41,400 nt of DNA, taken from Acidobacteriota bacterium (lineage in GTDB: Bacteria; Acidobacteriota; Terriglobia; Bryobacterales; Bryobacteraceae). Positions 963 through 29,636 of the stretch are shown here, piece after piece (positions within the stretch are counted from its first letter, which is position 1; every line of letters begins with the position of its first letter). The stretch spans positions 1 through 41,400 of the forward strand of contig VFZX01000025.1 in assembly GCA_016871015.1 (NCBI GenBank). Reading direction: 5' to 3'. A program made the translations under genes and the position numbers. The notes beneath the pieces are model-generated. The model had not been told where the DNA came from and did not search any database. It was given only the letters and a program-made list of their open reading frames with translations.

Positions 963-1484
963 CTACTTGCCGAGCGCCTTCTCAATCGCACGGGCGACCG
1001 AGCCCGAATCCGGCGAAGTCATTGAGCTGAACCGGTCGATCACCTTGCCGTCCGGACCCACCAGGAACTTCGTGAAATTCCAGCCAATCTCACCACCCTT
1101 GGCTCCCGTCAGGAAACCGTAGAGCGGCACCTTTGACGAACCCTTCACCGGCACCTTGGCGAACATCGGAAACGTGACGTCATAGGTGCGCTTACAAAAC
1201 GTCTTGATCTCCTCGTTCGAGCCTGGCTCCTGCCCACCGAAATCGTTCGACGGGAAGCCGAGCACTACGAATCCGCGATCCTTGTACTTTCTGTAGATTG
1301 ACTCCAGACCGGAGTACTGTCCTGTGAACCCTCAATTGCTGGCGACGTTGACGATCAACGCCACCTTGCCCTTGTAGGCGCTCAGGGACTGTTCAGCTCC
1401 GTCAATGGTCTTGACAGTGAATTCGTGGATCGAGTCGGCGGCGGAAAGCGACATGGTGGTTGCCAGAAGAATAGCAAATCTCAT
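963..1484 (-). CDS. Secreted glutathione peroxidase with in-frame UGA (selenocysteine)
   Basis: Read from the ATG at 1484, the 173-residue product begins with a signal peptide (MRFAILLATTMSLSAA, then DSIHEF). It continues with the glutathione peroxidase fold: KGKVALIVNVASN (39-50), then codon 51 = UGA at 1334-1332, then GFTGQYSGL, GFVVLGFPSNDFGGQEPG (71-88), VTFPMFAK (103-110) and GWNFTKFLV (134-142). In this family the residue after NVAS(N/K) is the catalytic Cys or Sec, so the UGA sits exactly on the active site. A hairpin with a GGUCU loop follows it (separate entry). Trp135 and Asn136 of the catalytic tetrad are kept, while the usual Gln is Asp81. Cys97 might act as resolving cysteine. 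The enzyme would reduce peroxides in the periplasm. The ATG lies 9 bases behind the receptor gene upstream, suggesting co-transcription. An ordinary gene caller would keep only the C-terminal part. A plain nonsense mutation is the alternative, but the exact position plus the hairpin make it unlikely. Confidence 0.88.
1301..1334 (-). promoter_or_regulatory. Bacterial SECIS element with its UGA codon
   Basis: The UGA codon occupies 1334-1332. Twenty-one bases after it the minus strand reads ACTCC-GGTCT-GGAGT (1315-1301), a perfect 5-bp stem with a GGUCU loop. The SelB-binding SECIS of Escherichia coli fdhF has the same GGUCU-type apical loop about 18 bases after its UGA. Loop sequence, stem and distance therefore all fit a selenocysteine insertion signal lying inside the coding region. 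The lower part of the stem is poorly paired, as is common for SECIS elements outside enterics. Confidence 0.85.
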
Positions 1485-1493
1485 AGTTCCATT

Positions 1494-4400
1494 TTAGAAG
1501 AACAGGCGGAGTCCGAACTGGACCTGCAGCGGCGTGCCGGACTGGGAATTGTTGCGGTCATAGCTGCCATTGGCGAGCTTCAGGCGCAGGAACCGGGGAT
1601 CCACCGGAACGGCGCGGCCCGCGGTGTCGATCCCAACTCCGTACACACCGCCTGTCGAGATGCTGCCGTTGGCGCCGCTGAAGATCACGTTGTCGATGTC
1701 GAGCAGGTTAAAGAACTCGGTCGAGAACTGGAGCTTGGTCCGCTCATTGATGCGGAAACTCTTCATCACGCGCAGATCGTTATTGACCACCGCGCGGTTG
1801 CGGAACGAATTGCGCTTCAGGGCCACGCCCGGCGCGATGAACGGACGGTCATTGTTGCCGAACTCCTCGTTCTGGTCGCCACCGGTGACCGGATTCACCA
1901 CCTGGCCGCTGCGCGCGCGGACCGAGACTCCTATCTCAAAGCCCAGCGGAAGCGAAGCCGTACCGAACCCGATGAACTGGTGGCGCAGGTCGAGCCGCGA
2001 GAACCCGTAGTCGTCCTGGAAGGCGAAGGGATTGGAATAGTTGAAACCGGTGGCATCGCGCTCGGTGTCGTCGTCAGAGAAGTTGGCGGCGAGCGTGTAG
2101 TGCGATCCGAACTGGTAGCGCTTCCCGCGATACTGCGCCGAATAGGTTACTGCGCGGTAGAGCGACCGCGCCGAGCTCTCGCGGACGGTGATCGAGCCGA
2201 GGTTGCGGAGCGGCCGCAAGGTCCCCGTGCGAAGCCCGAAGAACGGACGCCGCGAAACATCCGTTGGCCGGATCACCGGCGCCGGAAGATTGTAGTCACG
2301 GTTGCGGCCCAAGTAGACCGTGTTCACCAGGTTGAACTGTGCGCCCGCGACGAAATTCCGGAACAATTCGAATTCATAACCGATGCCGGTCTGGAACGCG
2401 CGCGGATTGTTGAAGTCGGTGGGAGTGGTGATCAGCGACGCGCCAATGAAGGGGTCGCGCGCGGTTCCACCAGCGGCGATCGCAGCGGCGCGCTGCACGT
2501 TCTCGAGCGGGATTACCGGGAGCTTGTCAAGCGTCGACGAGTTGAGATCCACACCGGCCGCACGCAGCAGCGTGTACACCGTTTGGTTGGCTGTGGAGGT
2601 CAGCCGGATCGAGACGTCGCCCGGAGGGGTCCGGAAATTGTTCGCCGCACCGGCGAACCACAACAACGGCGTCGAGGCGTAGAACAGCCCGGCGTGGCCA
2701 CGGATCACTCCGCGCGATCCTCCAAACGGCGTGTAGGCAAATCCAAACCGGGGAGCGAACTGCTTGGTGGAATCACGGATCTGCGTGGGCTCCAAAGCGG
2801 CTCCGTTCGGGAAGCGGAATCCTTTCACCTGATCGATCAGTGCGGAGTTGTTCGACTCCGCGGCTGGATTGAACTGGCCTTCCCAGCGCAGCCCGAAGTC
2901 GAGCGTCAACTGGCTGTTGAGGCGGAAGCTGTCCTGAACGAAAACCCCGGCCTGCGTCATGGTCATGGTCGCGAGCAGGTTGCCCAACTGGCGGTCGTAG
3001 GTCACCAGCGGACTGTCGAACCGGTTCTGTCCCGGGCGCGCGGTCATGATCTGCAGGATCTGGTCGATGTTCGAGCTGGCGATGGTGAACGCGCCGAACT
3101 GGTTGAAGCCGAAGCTCTGGCCCGCGGTAACGCGGCTATAGTCGACACCCACCTTCATCGTGTGTTTGCCGCGGATGATCGACAGGCTGTCGGTGATCTG
3201 CAGCCGCTTGTCGTCCTGCGTTGTGGGCAGGAAGTTGCGCGCGCCGAAGAGTCCGATCGGACGGGCGTCAACCTGGGGCGTGGCCGAATTGGCCAAGCGT
3301 GGACGGAGTTCCGAGGTCACGCCGAACTTGAGATCGTTCACCAGGCTCGGCGAGAAGAGGTGCGTGTACTGCATCGTGCCGCTGTGGGTGCGGTCCTTTT
3401 CCTGCCCGTCGTTGCTGAACGCCCGGTTGGTGAAGGGGTCGAGCGACGCTCCGACAGAAACCGCGTTGTTCGCCACGGCATCGCTGAAGTTGTACCGGAG
3501 CGTCAGCCGGTGGCCCGCCTGGCGTTGCATGTCCATACGTCCGGTAAGAGCTGTCGCGTCGTTGGACTGCTGGAACGGCCGCTCCTCGCCCTTCAGGAAA
3601 TTGAAGGCCTCGGCGCCAGCGGGCTGGGGCGTCCGGCCGAGAAGCTGGGCGAACAGCACGCTGCGGCGCTGGGCTGCGTCCTGGCGCTCGAAGGCTCCGA
3701 ACCAGAAAACCGAATTCTCGCGGATTGCGCCGCCGGCTCCCCCGCCCCATTGATGCTGGGTCTCGAGCGAAGCGATCCGCTGGACCGAGTCCTTGAGCCC
3801 CATCTCCTTATGCCGGATCTGGTAGAACGCCTCGCCGTGAAGCTGATTTGCACCGGACTTGGTGATCGTGTTCAGCACTCCGCCGGTCGACCGTCCATAC
3901 TCGGCCGAGTATCCGGTAGTGACCACCTGGAACTCCTGGATCGCGGTCTGGGGAATCGTGAAAATATTGTTGGACCGCTCGCCGCCGCGAATCCCGCCGA
4001 AGAACGGCTGGTTGTAGTCGGCGCCATCGAGCATCACGTTGGTGTTGACACCGCGCTGTCCGGCGAAGCTCAACTGCCCGCGCACGGGATCCACCTGCAC
4101 GGTTGGCGTCAGGACGGCGAAGTCCTGGAACCGCCTGCCGTTGATCGGCAGGTTGGTGATGGTGAGACTGTCGATCGTAGCCGAAGGGGCGGGCAGTGCA
4201 ACGTTGATCGCCGAAGTGCCAACTTCGATCACCGTCGACGTGCCTGCCACCTGCAGAGTCAGATCCAGGCCCACGGCTGCTCCAACCGTCACGCGGACAC
4301 CCTCGGCCTTCGCAGGCGAAAATCCGGAAGTCTCGGCGGTGACGTCATAGCTGCCCGGGTCCAACTGGACCACGCGGTATTGTCCGGACTCGTTGGTCTG

Positions 4401-4577
4401 CACTTCGCGCACCAAGCCGGTCGACGGGTTGCGCGCCGTGATCTTCGAGTTCGCGACAACAGCTCCGTTGGCGTCGTATACTGTGCCGGTGATCTGGCCC
4501 TTGTTGCCGTCGGCTTGCGCGAACAGCGAAAGCGACGCAAACAGCACGAGTGCCATCCGTGAGAGCATGCGAATCAT
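1494..4577 (-). CDS. TonB-dependent receptor with N-terminal carboxypeptidase-regulatory domain (Oar-like)
   Basis: This 1027-residue outer-membrane protein starts with a signal peptide (MIRMLSRMALVLFASLSLFA, cleavage near AQA-DG). Residues about 28-110 are a carboxypeptidase-regulatory-like beta sandwich (GQITGTVYDANGAVV, then TNESGQYRVVQLDPGSY). A plug follows (LPINGRRFQDFAVL, DGADYNQPFF, GYSAEYGRSTGGVLN, ITKSGANQLHGEAF). The remainder is a beta-barrel ending in Phe (GLRLFF), the usual outer-membrane assembly signal. A strong Shine-Dalgarno AGGAG at 4590-4586 lies 8 bases before the ATG and fixes the start. These Oar-like receptors are greatly expanded in Acidobacteria and are thought to import large or complex nutrients; the substrate cannot be told here. 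The selenoprotein peroxidase follows after 9 bases. Confidence 0.93.
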   Translation of the reverse strand: MIRMLSRMALVLFASLSLFAQADGNKGQITGTVYDANGAVVANSKITARNPSTGLVREVQTNESGQYRVVQLDPGSYDVTAETSGFSPAKAEGVRVTVGAAVGLDLTLQVAGTSTVIEVGTSAINVALPAPSATIDSLTITNLPINGRRFQDFAVLTPTVQVDPVRGQLSFAGQRGVNTNVMLDGADYNQPFFGGIRGGERSNNIFTIPQTAIQEFQVVTTGYSAEYGRSTGGVLNTITKSGANQLHGEAFYQIRHKEMGLKDSVQRIASLETQHQWGGGAGGAIRENSVFWFGAFERQDAAQRRSVLFAQLLGRTPQPAGAEAFNFLKGEERPFQQSNDATALTGRMDMQRQAGHRLTLRYNFSDAVANNAVSVGASLDPFTNRAFSNDGQEKDRTHSGTMQYTHLFSPSLVNDLKFGVTSELRPRLANSATPQVDARPIGLFGARNFLPTTQDDKRLQITDSLSIIRGKHTMKVGVDYSRVTAGQSFGFNQFGAFTIASSNIDQILQIMTARPGQNRFDSPLVTYDRQLGNLLATMTMTQAGVFVQDSFRLNSQLTLDFGLRWEGQFNPAAESNNSALIDQVKGFRFPNGAALEPTQIRDSTKQFAPRFGFAYTPFGGSRGVIRGHAGLFYASTPLLWFAGAANNFRTPPGDVSIRLTSTANQTVYTLLRAAGVDLNSSTLDKLPVIPLENVQRAAAIAAGGTARDPFIGASLITTPTDFNNPRAFQTGIGYEFELFRNFVAGAQFNLVNTVYLGRNRDYNLPAPVIRPTDVSRRPFFGLRTGTLRPLRNLGSITVRESSARSLYRAVTYSAQYRGKRYQFGSHYTLAANFSDDDTERDATGFNYSNPFAFQDDYGFSRLDLRHQFIGFGTASLPLGFEIGVSVRARSGQVVNPVTGGDQNEEFGNNDRPFIAPGVALKRNSFRNRAVVNNDLRVMKSFRINERTKLQFSTEFFNLLDIDNVIFSGANGSISTGGVYGVGIDTAGRAVPVDPRFLRLKLANGSYDRNNSQSGTPLQVQFGLRLFF

Positions 4578-28460: not shown

Positions 28461-29636
28461 ATGTCCAAGTTTTCACGTCGATCGCTCATGCAGGGAGGCG
28501 CGGCGCTTCCGGCGCTTGCCGCCACCAAGGGATCCAATGGATCCACGATTTATTCGAAGGTCGGCATGAAGCCGGTGATCAACGGCATGGGCACGGTCAC
28601 TGTACTCGGCGGGTCGATCATGGCGCCTGAGGTGGTCCGGGCGATGGAAGAGGCTTCGCGCCACTTCGTCCGCATGCCCGAACTCAAGGAGAACGTCGGC
28701 AAGCGGCTGGCGGAGCTCTTGAATGTCCCCGCCGCGATGGTGACTACCGGCGCCGCGGGCGCGATCAGCGTGGCGACGGCTGCGTGCATGGCCAGTGGCG
28801 ACTTGGGCAAGGTGGGCAGGCTTCCGGACACGCAAGGCGCGAAAACGGTCGTGATCCAGCAGAAGACCCACCGCAGCGGATACGAGGCTCAGATCGAGCT
28901 GTGCGGCGCGCGCGTCGTGGCGGTGGAGACTCGCGAGGAGCTTGACCGGGCGATCAATGCCGACACGGCGATGCTGTTCTTCCTCAACAAGGACGAGTCC
29001 AAGGGCAAGATCAAGCGCGAAGAGTGGATCCGTGTGGGCAAGGAACGCGGCGTGCCAACGTTCAATGACGCCGCGGCCGATGTTCCTCCGTCGTCGCGGC
29101 TGACCGATGTCGTGAAGCAGGGCTTCGACCTGGTCTGCTTCTCCGGCGGCAAGGGACTGCGCGGACCGCAATCGACCGGGCTGCTGCTTGGGCGCGAGGA
29201 CCTGATCGCGGCGGGGCAGCGGGCACTGAGTCCGAATGGCGGCGTGGGGCGCGGCATGAAGGTCGGCAAGGAAGAGATGATGGGGCTGCTCGCCGCGGTG
29301 GAGCGGTTCCTGCGCGTGGACCATGCAGCCGAGGCGCGGATGCTCGACAAGCGGGTGGCTGAGATGTCTTCGGCGCTCGACGGACTGGCGGGCCTGAAGT
29401 GCTCCCGCGAGATTCCGTCGATCGCCAATGAAGTTCCGCACCTGGTGGTCCAGTGGGACGAGGCGGCCGCCAAGGTCACCGCGCGCGATCTCATGAAGAA
29501 GCTTGAAGAGGGCGAGCCGTCGATTTCGATCCTCGGACAGGGGCCCGGCAAGGTGATGGTTTCGGTGTGGATGATGCAGGGCAACGAGCACCGGATTGTC
29601 GCGCGCCGGATGCGCGAGATCTTCAGCGGCGCGTGA
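28461..29636 (+). CDS. Tat-signalled SelA/DgaE-like PLP-dependent enzyme
   Basis: The 391-residue protein starts at ATG 28461 with GGAGG seven bases ahead. Its N-terminus MSKFSRRSLMQGGAALPALA is a twin-arginine signal (SRRSLMQ). The rest is a fold-type I PLP enzyme of the selenocysteine synthase/D-glucosaminate-6-phosphate ammonia-lyase group: VINGMGTVTVLGGSIMAPEVV, VTTGAAGAISVATAACMASGD, FNDAAADVPP with the ring-binding Asp203, and CFSGGKGLRGPQSTGLLLG with the PLP lysine Lys231. It lacks the N-terminal tRNA-binding domain of true SelA. DgaE-type enzymes turn D-glucosaminate-6-phosphate into keto-deoxy-gluconate-6-phosphate and ammonia, which would feed the aldolase encoded just before. Export of such an enzyme is unusual. 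Its last 14 bases overlap the convergent cytochrome gene. Confidence 0.85.
   Translation: MSKFSRRSLMQGGAALPALAATKGSNGSTIYSKVGMKPVINGMGTVTVLGGSIMAPEVVRAMEEASRHFVRMPELKENVGKRLAELLNVPAAMVTTGAAGAISVATAACMASGDLGKVGRLPDTQGAKTVVIQQKTHRSGYEAQIELCGARVVAVETREELDRAINADTAMLFFLNKDESKGKIKREEWIRVGKERGVPTFNDAAADVPPSSRLTDVVKQGFDLVCFSGGKGLRGPQSTGLLLGREDLIAAGQRALSPNGGVGRGMKVGKEEMMGLLAAVERFLRVDHAAEARMLDKRVAEMSSALDGLAGLKCSREIPSIANEVPHLVVQWDEAAAKVTARDLMKKLEEGEPSISILGQGPGKVMVSVWMMQGNEHRIVARRMREIFSGA

Follow-up and report, generated by a model that had tools for sequence, protein, structure and literature searches.

An acidobacterial glutathione peroxidase gene with an in-frame UGA at its catalytic codon, predicted to encode selenocysteine

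The 41,400-nt stretch of acidobacterial DNA analysed here (the window) carries a glutathione peroxidase (GPx) gene in which the apparent stop at codon 51 is almost certainly read as selenocysteine (Sec). The evidence supports well the view that this is a real, well-conserved and easily missed selenoprotein gene (Table 1). An earlier note on this DNA had expected standard annotation to split or lose the gene, and standard translation does split it, yielding merely a 100-aa ORF downstream of the UGA; with the UGA read as Sec, the gene is recovered. Taken together as one explanation, a Sec GPx whose decoding depends on SelA, SelB and SelD, which is exported and which works through Se-S chemistry, appears to us very probable.

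Table 1. Features of the GPx locus, in window coordinates
Feature	Position	Strand	Basis
Selenoprotein glutathione peroxidase gene (predicted)	963..1484	-	frame of 173 residues ending in TAG when the UGA is taken as Sec; Pfam GSHPx 1.2e-39; AlphaFold2 model with GPx fold
Signal-peptide-like N-terminus, residues 1-16, plausible cleavage between SAA and DS	1437..1484	-	read by eye
UGA at codon 51, in frame, predicted Sec; motif UGFT (UxxT type)	1332..1334	-	frame, codon alignment, conserved block
20-nt block over codons 56-62, shared letter for letter by the family's six UGA genes	1300..1319	-	six-gene alignment
Predicted bSECIS hairpin ACUCC-GGUCU-GGAGU, loop 1310-1306	1301..1315	-	geometry, rarity, folding
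Codon 85, Gln of catalytic site	1230..1232	-	Gln in 100/100 aligned rows
Codon 97, predicted resolving Cys	1194..1196	-	Cys in 100/100 aligned rows
Codons 135-136, Trp-Asn of catalytic site	1077..1082	-	each in 100/100 aligned rows
TonB-dependent receptor-like outer membrane protein, upstream neighbour	1494..4577	-	stop 9 nt ahead of the GPx ATG

A single in-frame UGA shared by relatives

As the earlier note had claimed, the reverse-strand frame from 1484 to 963 is continuous save for one UGA: the TGA at 1334-1332 (codon 51) is its sole internal stop before the terminal TAG, 173 residues in all. The UGA was also said to lie where glutathione peroxidases carry their catalytic Cys or Sec, and this held at 116 of 116 homologous loci (duplicates included), where the codon aligned to 51 is TGC in 103 cases, TGT in five and TGA in eight. 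One of the TGT rows is a distant paralogue (L030); once it and the duplicates are removed, 90 TGC, 4 TGT and 6 TGA genes remain (n=100).

It could be argued that the locus is a pseudogene, an ordinary Cys gene in which a recent nonsense mutation or a sequencing error has produced the UGA, given that a single base change turns TGC into TGA, that 94 of the 100 distinct homologues encode Cys, and that so short an ORF is left by the standard code. However, the frame is otherwise undamaged, and the UGA is not confined to this genome. Some GPx match at E<=0.001 was found in 242 of the 257 genomes of the order, and among the matches listed six genomes have a gene with one TGA: that of the window, G218 from the same genus, and G236, G055, G057 and G234 from the same family. 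The five others have their UGA at codon 51 as well, so a lone recent mutation in this strain does not describe the data. With the UGA common to six genomes of the family and present at the same codon in one further family (see below), we ruled out a recent nonsense mutation or assembly error, a reading that the conserved block described in the next section also contradicts and that we regard as scarcely credible.

Of the two other genomes of the genus, G218 alone shows the UGA gene among the matches listed; G217 (77% complete) has a weaker match, 6.9e-36. The best 80 of 440 loci from the genome collection contain one TGA locus, L067 from a Candidatus Solibacter usitatus isolate, which apparently duplicates the G055 gene. 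In a sample of 399 genomes of the class, 168 match at 1e-50, and the two TGA genes among the matches listed were both already known; in a sample of 396 genomes of the phylum, 149 match at 1e-20, and the matches listed contain one further TGA gene, in G408, a member of another family. The G408 gene (L183) has ACTCC-AGTTT-GGAGT downstream of its UGA, that is, the same stem with a changed loop after 24 nt and one extra codon; when this hairpin is folded alone, the A pairs with the last U and a GUU loop is left.

A predicted SECIS hairpin inside an invariant block

The earlier note had described a perfect hairpin, ACTCC-GGTCT-GGAGT, 21 bases after the UGA. The hairpin is indeed perfect; the distance needs correction, as the gap from the UGA is 16 nt to the hairpin and 21 nt to the loop. 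The loop had been likened to that of known bacterial SECIS elements, and the letters GGTCT do also stand downstream of the UGA of Escherichia coli fdhF, although there they follow after 18 nt rather than 21 and the flanking stem differs. The bSECIS model, as given in PMC13188914, has a loop of 3-9 nt, a stem of 4-16 bp, a G in the first two loop positions, a UGA-loop distance of 16-37 nt and a minimum free energy of -7.5 kcal/mol or lower. With a loop of 5 nt (GGUCU), a stem of 5 bp and a distance of 21 nt, the hairpin fits that model in loop, stem, G position and distance. On energy the picture is mixed: a 31-nt cut of the window folds at -7.7 kcal/mol, just below -7.5, and the corresponding cuts give -5.9 in G218, short of -7.5, and -8.3 in G408.

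Hairpins of this kind are rare. The window contains 1056 TGAs on its two strands, 103 of which are followed at 16-37 nt by a 5-bp Watson-Crick hairpin with G in the first two loop positions, and just one precedes such a hairpin with the loop GGTCT. Among 22,463 TGAs in 183 fetched loci (843 kb counting overlaps, without the E. coli locus) there are nine such GGTCT hairpins at 16-37 nt, one per locus in nine loci; these nine loci hold the six UGA genes, three of the loci being duplicates. Across the window and the 183 loci, a UGA followed by a GGUCU hairpin was therefore found nowhere outside the six UGA GPx genes. A looser DNA pattern, TGA-N19-CCGGTCTGG, matched 133 of the 257 genomes of the order and its reversed control matched in many too, which made it unusable. 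An Rfam scan of 900-1600 returned three matches, all far under their gathering scores and none relevant.

Conservation points in the same direction. The six UGA genes encode proteins with pairwise identities of 60-77%, and the sequence CAGTACTCCGGTCTGGAGTC is unchanged in all of them over codons 56-62, the next longest invariant run being 8 nt. In 1000 six-gene sets of Cys homologues, drawn from 93 genes whose pairwise identities stay at or below 78%, the longest invariant run had a median of 6, a 95th percentile of 11 and a maximum of 18, and none of the sets reached 20. Third codon positions are invariant at six successive codons (56-61), as against 22 of 149 overall in the six UGA genes, which is hard to reconcile with a decaying Cys gene. 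The block itself is absent from all 94 Cys genes, the best of which matches 17 of its 20 positions. One Cys gene (L122, in G165) has a perfect hairpin, ATTCC-GGCCT-GGAAT, at the exact SECIS distance, with one C-G pair now T-A; this hairpin may be left over from a Sec ancestor or have arisen by chance.

Folding energy carries less information. Alone, the hairpin 15-mer folds at -5.3 kcal/mol, and 13 of 200 shuffles fold as well; the value of the 31-nt window cut is equalled by 37 of 200 shuffles, and a 53-nt window cut starting from the UGA prefers a different fold (z 0.48). The hairpin lies within the minimum-energy fold of four of the six UGA genes with the 53-nt cut, the window's gene not being among the four, and of five of the six with a 42-nt cut. 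Some hairpin of -5 kcal/mol or better occurs at the right distance in 5 of the 94 Cys genes, so stability alone cannot separate Sec from Cys genes. Given the shuffles and the alternative folds, we dropped folding energy as a standalone proof of a SECIS, for which it is weak evidence, and relied on rarity and conservation, which are real evidence.

Sec machinery in the genome and its relatives

The genome from which the window derives (8.66 Mb in 720 contigs, 99.74% complete, with the window as contig C25) encodes the components that Sec incorporation would need. Genes selA, selB, selC and selD are all present, among them the two, selB and selC, whose absence would have counted against a selenoprotein in the earlier note. 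Profile searches of the genome gave 345.6 bits for selB, 492.7 for selA and 361.8 for selD, all above curated cut-offs that were passed in 14 control genomes by 2, 1 and 2 genomes, respectively. At 73.8 bits the tRNA-Sec exceeds its gathering score of 47, and ARAGORN calls it tRNA-SeC (tca); as the family cut-off is also passed in 5 of the 14 control genomes, the tRNA-Sec family score alone is not specific. The genes for GPx, SelA, SelB, SelD and tRNA-Sec lie on five different contigs. These components are present in the genome, and we infer that they act on this gene. Within the window, 29010-29330 on the forward strand shows a weak selA-profile match (30 bits) that is most likely a different PLP-dependent enzyme.

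The selD gene of this genome (L017; contig C61, 16525-17448) has its own in-frame TGA, followed after 19 nt by the loop of a SECIS-like hairpin, GTCCAA-AGGTA-TTGGAC, with a slightly stabler hairpin further downstream; its sequence makes it a candidate second selenoprotein. Machinery is also found in relatives. In the order, selB is above cut-off in 204 of 257 genomes, so Sec use is common in the group in which a Sec peroxidase, probably exported, is now placed. In eight of eight genomes tested, five being the remaining UGA genomes of the family and three carrying Cys genes, tRNA-Sec is above cut-off and ARAGORN calls tRNA-SeC (tca). A selA gene is present in seven of seven genomes tested (those five UGA genomes, G066 with a Cys gene, and G408). 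Four of these five UGA genomes also give a selB match at E<=1e-60; G055, 79% complete, has none at that threshold.

Since Sec at codon 51 is a prediction from sequence, the UGA might instead allow low-level read-through, or specify some other amino acid, independently of SelB, with the block conserved for another reason. We consider this highly improbable, since the genome encodes a complete Sec machinery and carries another gene with an in-frame UGA, selD, and since the block has the five letters of fdhF at nearly the same distance. Under Sec insertion, SelD would make selenophosphate, SelA would make Sec-tRNA-Sec, and SelB would bind the hairpin at 1315-1301 and deliver Sec at the UGA.

Protein family, fold and proposed chemistry

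The protein matches the Pfam family GSHPx (PF00255) with 134.7 bits against a curated cut-off of 27 (1.2e-39). Three NCBIfam models match below their cut-offs, two of them glutathione peroxidases, with PRK10606.1 and gpx7 among the narrower models. A PDB search returned 41 distinct sequences at E<=0.001, which are glutathione peroxidases by name except for yeast HYR1 and seven designed proteins. An AlphaFold2 model, built with residue 51 as Cys from an alignment of 27 sequences, has a mean pLDDT of 90.5 and a GPx fold, and its best PDB fold matches are poplar GPX5, Staphylococcus aureus GPx, Schistosoma GPx and human GPX4, 7 and 8. Codons 51, 85, 135 and 136 specify Cys/Sec, Gln, Trp and Asn in every one of the 100 aligned rows when Sec is scored as Cys, a set of residues which together we take to be the GPx catalytic site.

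The gene product would be expected to behave as a thioredoxin-fold glutathione peroxidase with selenocysteine as its peroxidatic residue. Sec51, together with Gln85, Trp135 and Asn136, would reduce a hydroperoxide, after which Cys97 would form a Se-S bond with the oxidised Sec. Because the resolving Cys is retained, we propose that the Se-S form is probably reduced by a thioredoxin-like protein and not by glutathione. Bacterial GPx contain both cysteines, and thioredoxin or GSH can serve as their donor, according to PMC8614756.

The Cys homologues of the order, which are bacterial two-Cys GPx, share up to 73% identity with the protein and have the same Gln, Trp, Asn and resolving Cys97. They differ in having a peroxidatic Cys, encoded by TGC or TGT, and in lacking the 20-nt block. 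Mammalian GPX4 is alike in fold (5h5r_A, TM 0.81 and 44% identity; 6elw, the Sec form, TM 0.79). The SECIS of mammalian GPX4 is located in the 3' UTR. The resolving Cys that is kept here has been lost in animal Sec-GPx, as described in PMC8614756, and the combination of Sec with a resolving Cys corresponds to the transitional state that the model of that paper implies for animal GPx.

Export and genomic neighbourhood

The GPx is probably exported, judging by its N-terminal sequence, read by eye. The chain would leave the cytoplasm by means of this N-terminal signal and work outside it. It could also be that the protein is a real selenoprotein that is not exported, its N-terminus being a membrane anchor or the start codon wrongly placed, the more so as both the signal-like character and the starts were judged by eye. 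However, all six UGA proteins can begin, from start codons chosen in that way, with a short hydrophobic segment whose last residues are small, and we regard non-export as unlikely. On the preferred reading of an exported enzyme, insertion of Sec before export, an implication drawn in the earlier note, would be unsurprising; exported bacterial selenoproteins are known, for example formate dehydrogenase N.

The upstream receptor gene stops 9 nt short of the GPx ATG, and the two genes may be co-transcribed. An operon logic linking the GPx to the TonB receptor was considered and dropped, since the genes directly flanking the five other UGA genes, ten in all, include no such receptor. On the opposite strand, a 1045-aa ORF at 1425-4562 of the window, antisense to the receptor gene, looks like a mechanical shadow of it.

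Known selenoproteins and the evolution of Sec and Cys forms

GPX-like selenoproteins with the motif UxxT are listed in section 7 of PMC13188914 as predicted with high confidence, and Gpx was listed in 2006 among the selenoproteins of Treponema denticola (PMC1794560). The same paper lists four selenoproteins of three families for Acidobacteria. The protein described here resembles the T. denticola selenoprotein, as listed, in its PF00255 match and its UxxT motif (here UGFT), and differs in belonging to an acidobacterial order and in having a signal-like N-terminus. In the open-access literature we found no report of a Sec GPx in acidobacteria, and the terms GPX and glutathione peroxidase are absent from the main text of the deep-Sep paper, which tests one acidobacterium (PMC12013277). 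As a GPX-like UxxT selenoprotein, the protein is well supported and belongs to a kind that bacterial catalogues already include.

On a tree of 100 proteins, the six Sec rows fall in two clusters, and three changes between Sec and Cys are needed, two of them forced by starred branches. When G408 is included (101 rows, 47 of them hand-chosen), four changes are needed and three are forced; bootstrap values are unsettled in this tree and G408 sits on a long branch. A single clade of the six Sec genes gave p-AU 0.040, the group having been tested after the tree was seen, and the four-gene Sec cluster gave p-AU 0.352. The interleaving of Sec and Cys forms hints at Sec-to-Cys losses, and two Cys genes that are nested among Sec genes on the trees, L091 and L108, are candidate cases of such a change.

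The 20-nt block does not differ between the two clusters, so a single Sec ancestor followed by conversions to Cys seems simpler than two separate gains of that block; transfer of the Sec gene is also possible. In bacteria, Sec-to-Cys change is rare and documented mainly for FdhA and SelD, according to section 10 of PMC13188914. We offer only tentatively, and at somewhat less than even odds, the wider idea that much of the acidobacterial GPx family descends from a Sec form with a fixed SECIS block that was repeatedly converted to Cys, leaving scattered survivors that combine Sec with the resolving Cys. In any case, these genes offer Sec and Cys homologues side by side, as a natural series with a recoding signal fixed to the base, which should be useful for questions of Sec gain and loss. 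Two further loci, L039 and L061, come from contigs titled Arcobacter sp. and Betaproteobacteria and contain acidobacterial-like GPx genes (67% and 55% identity), for which mislabelled bins or transfer are candidate readings.
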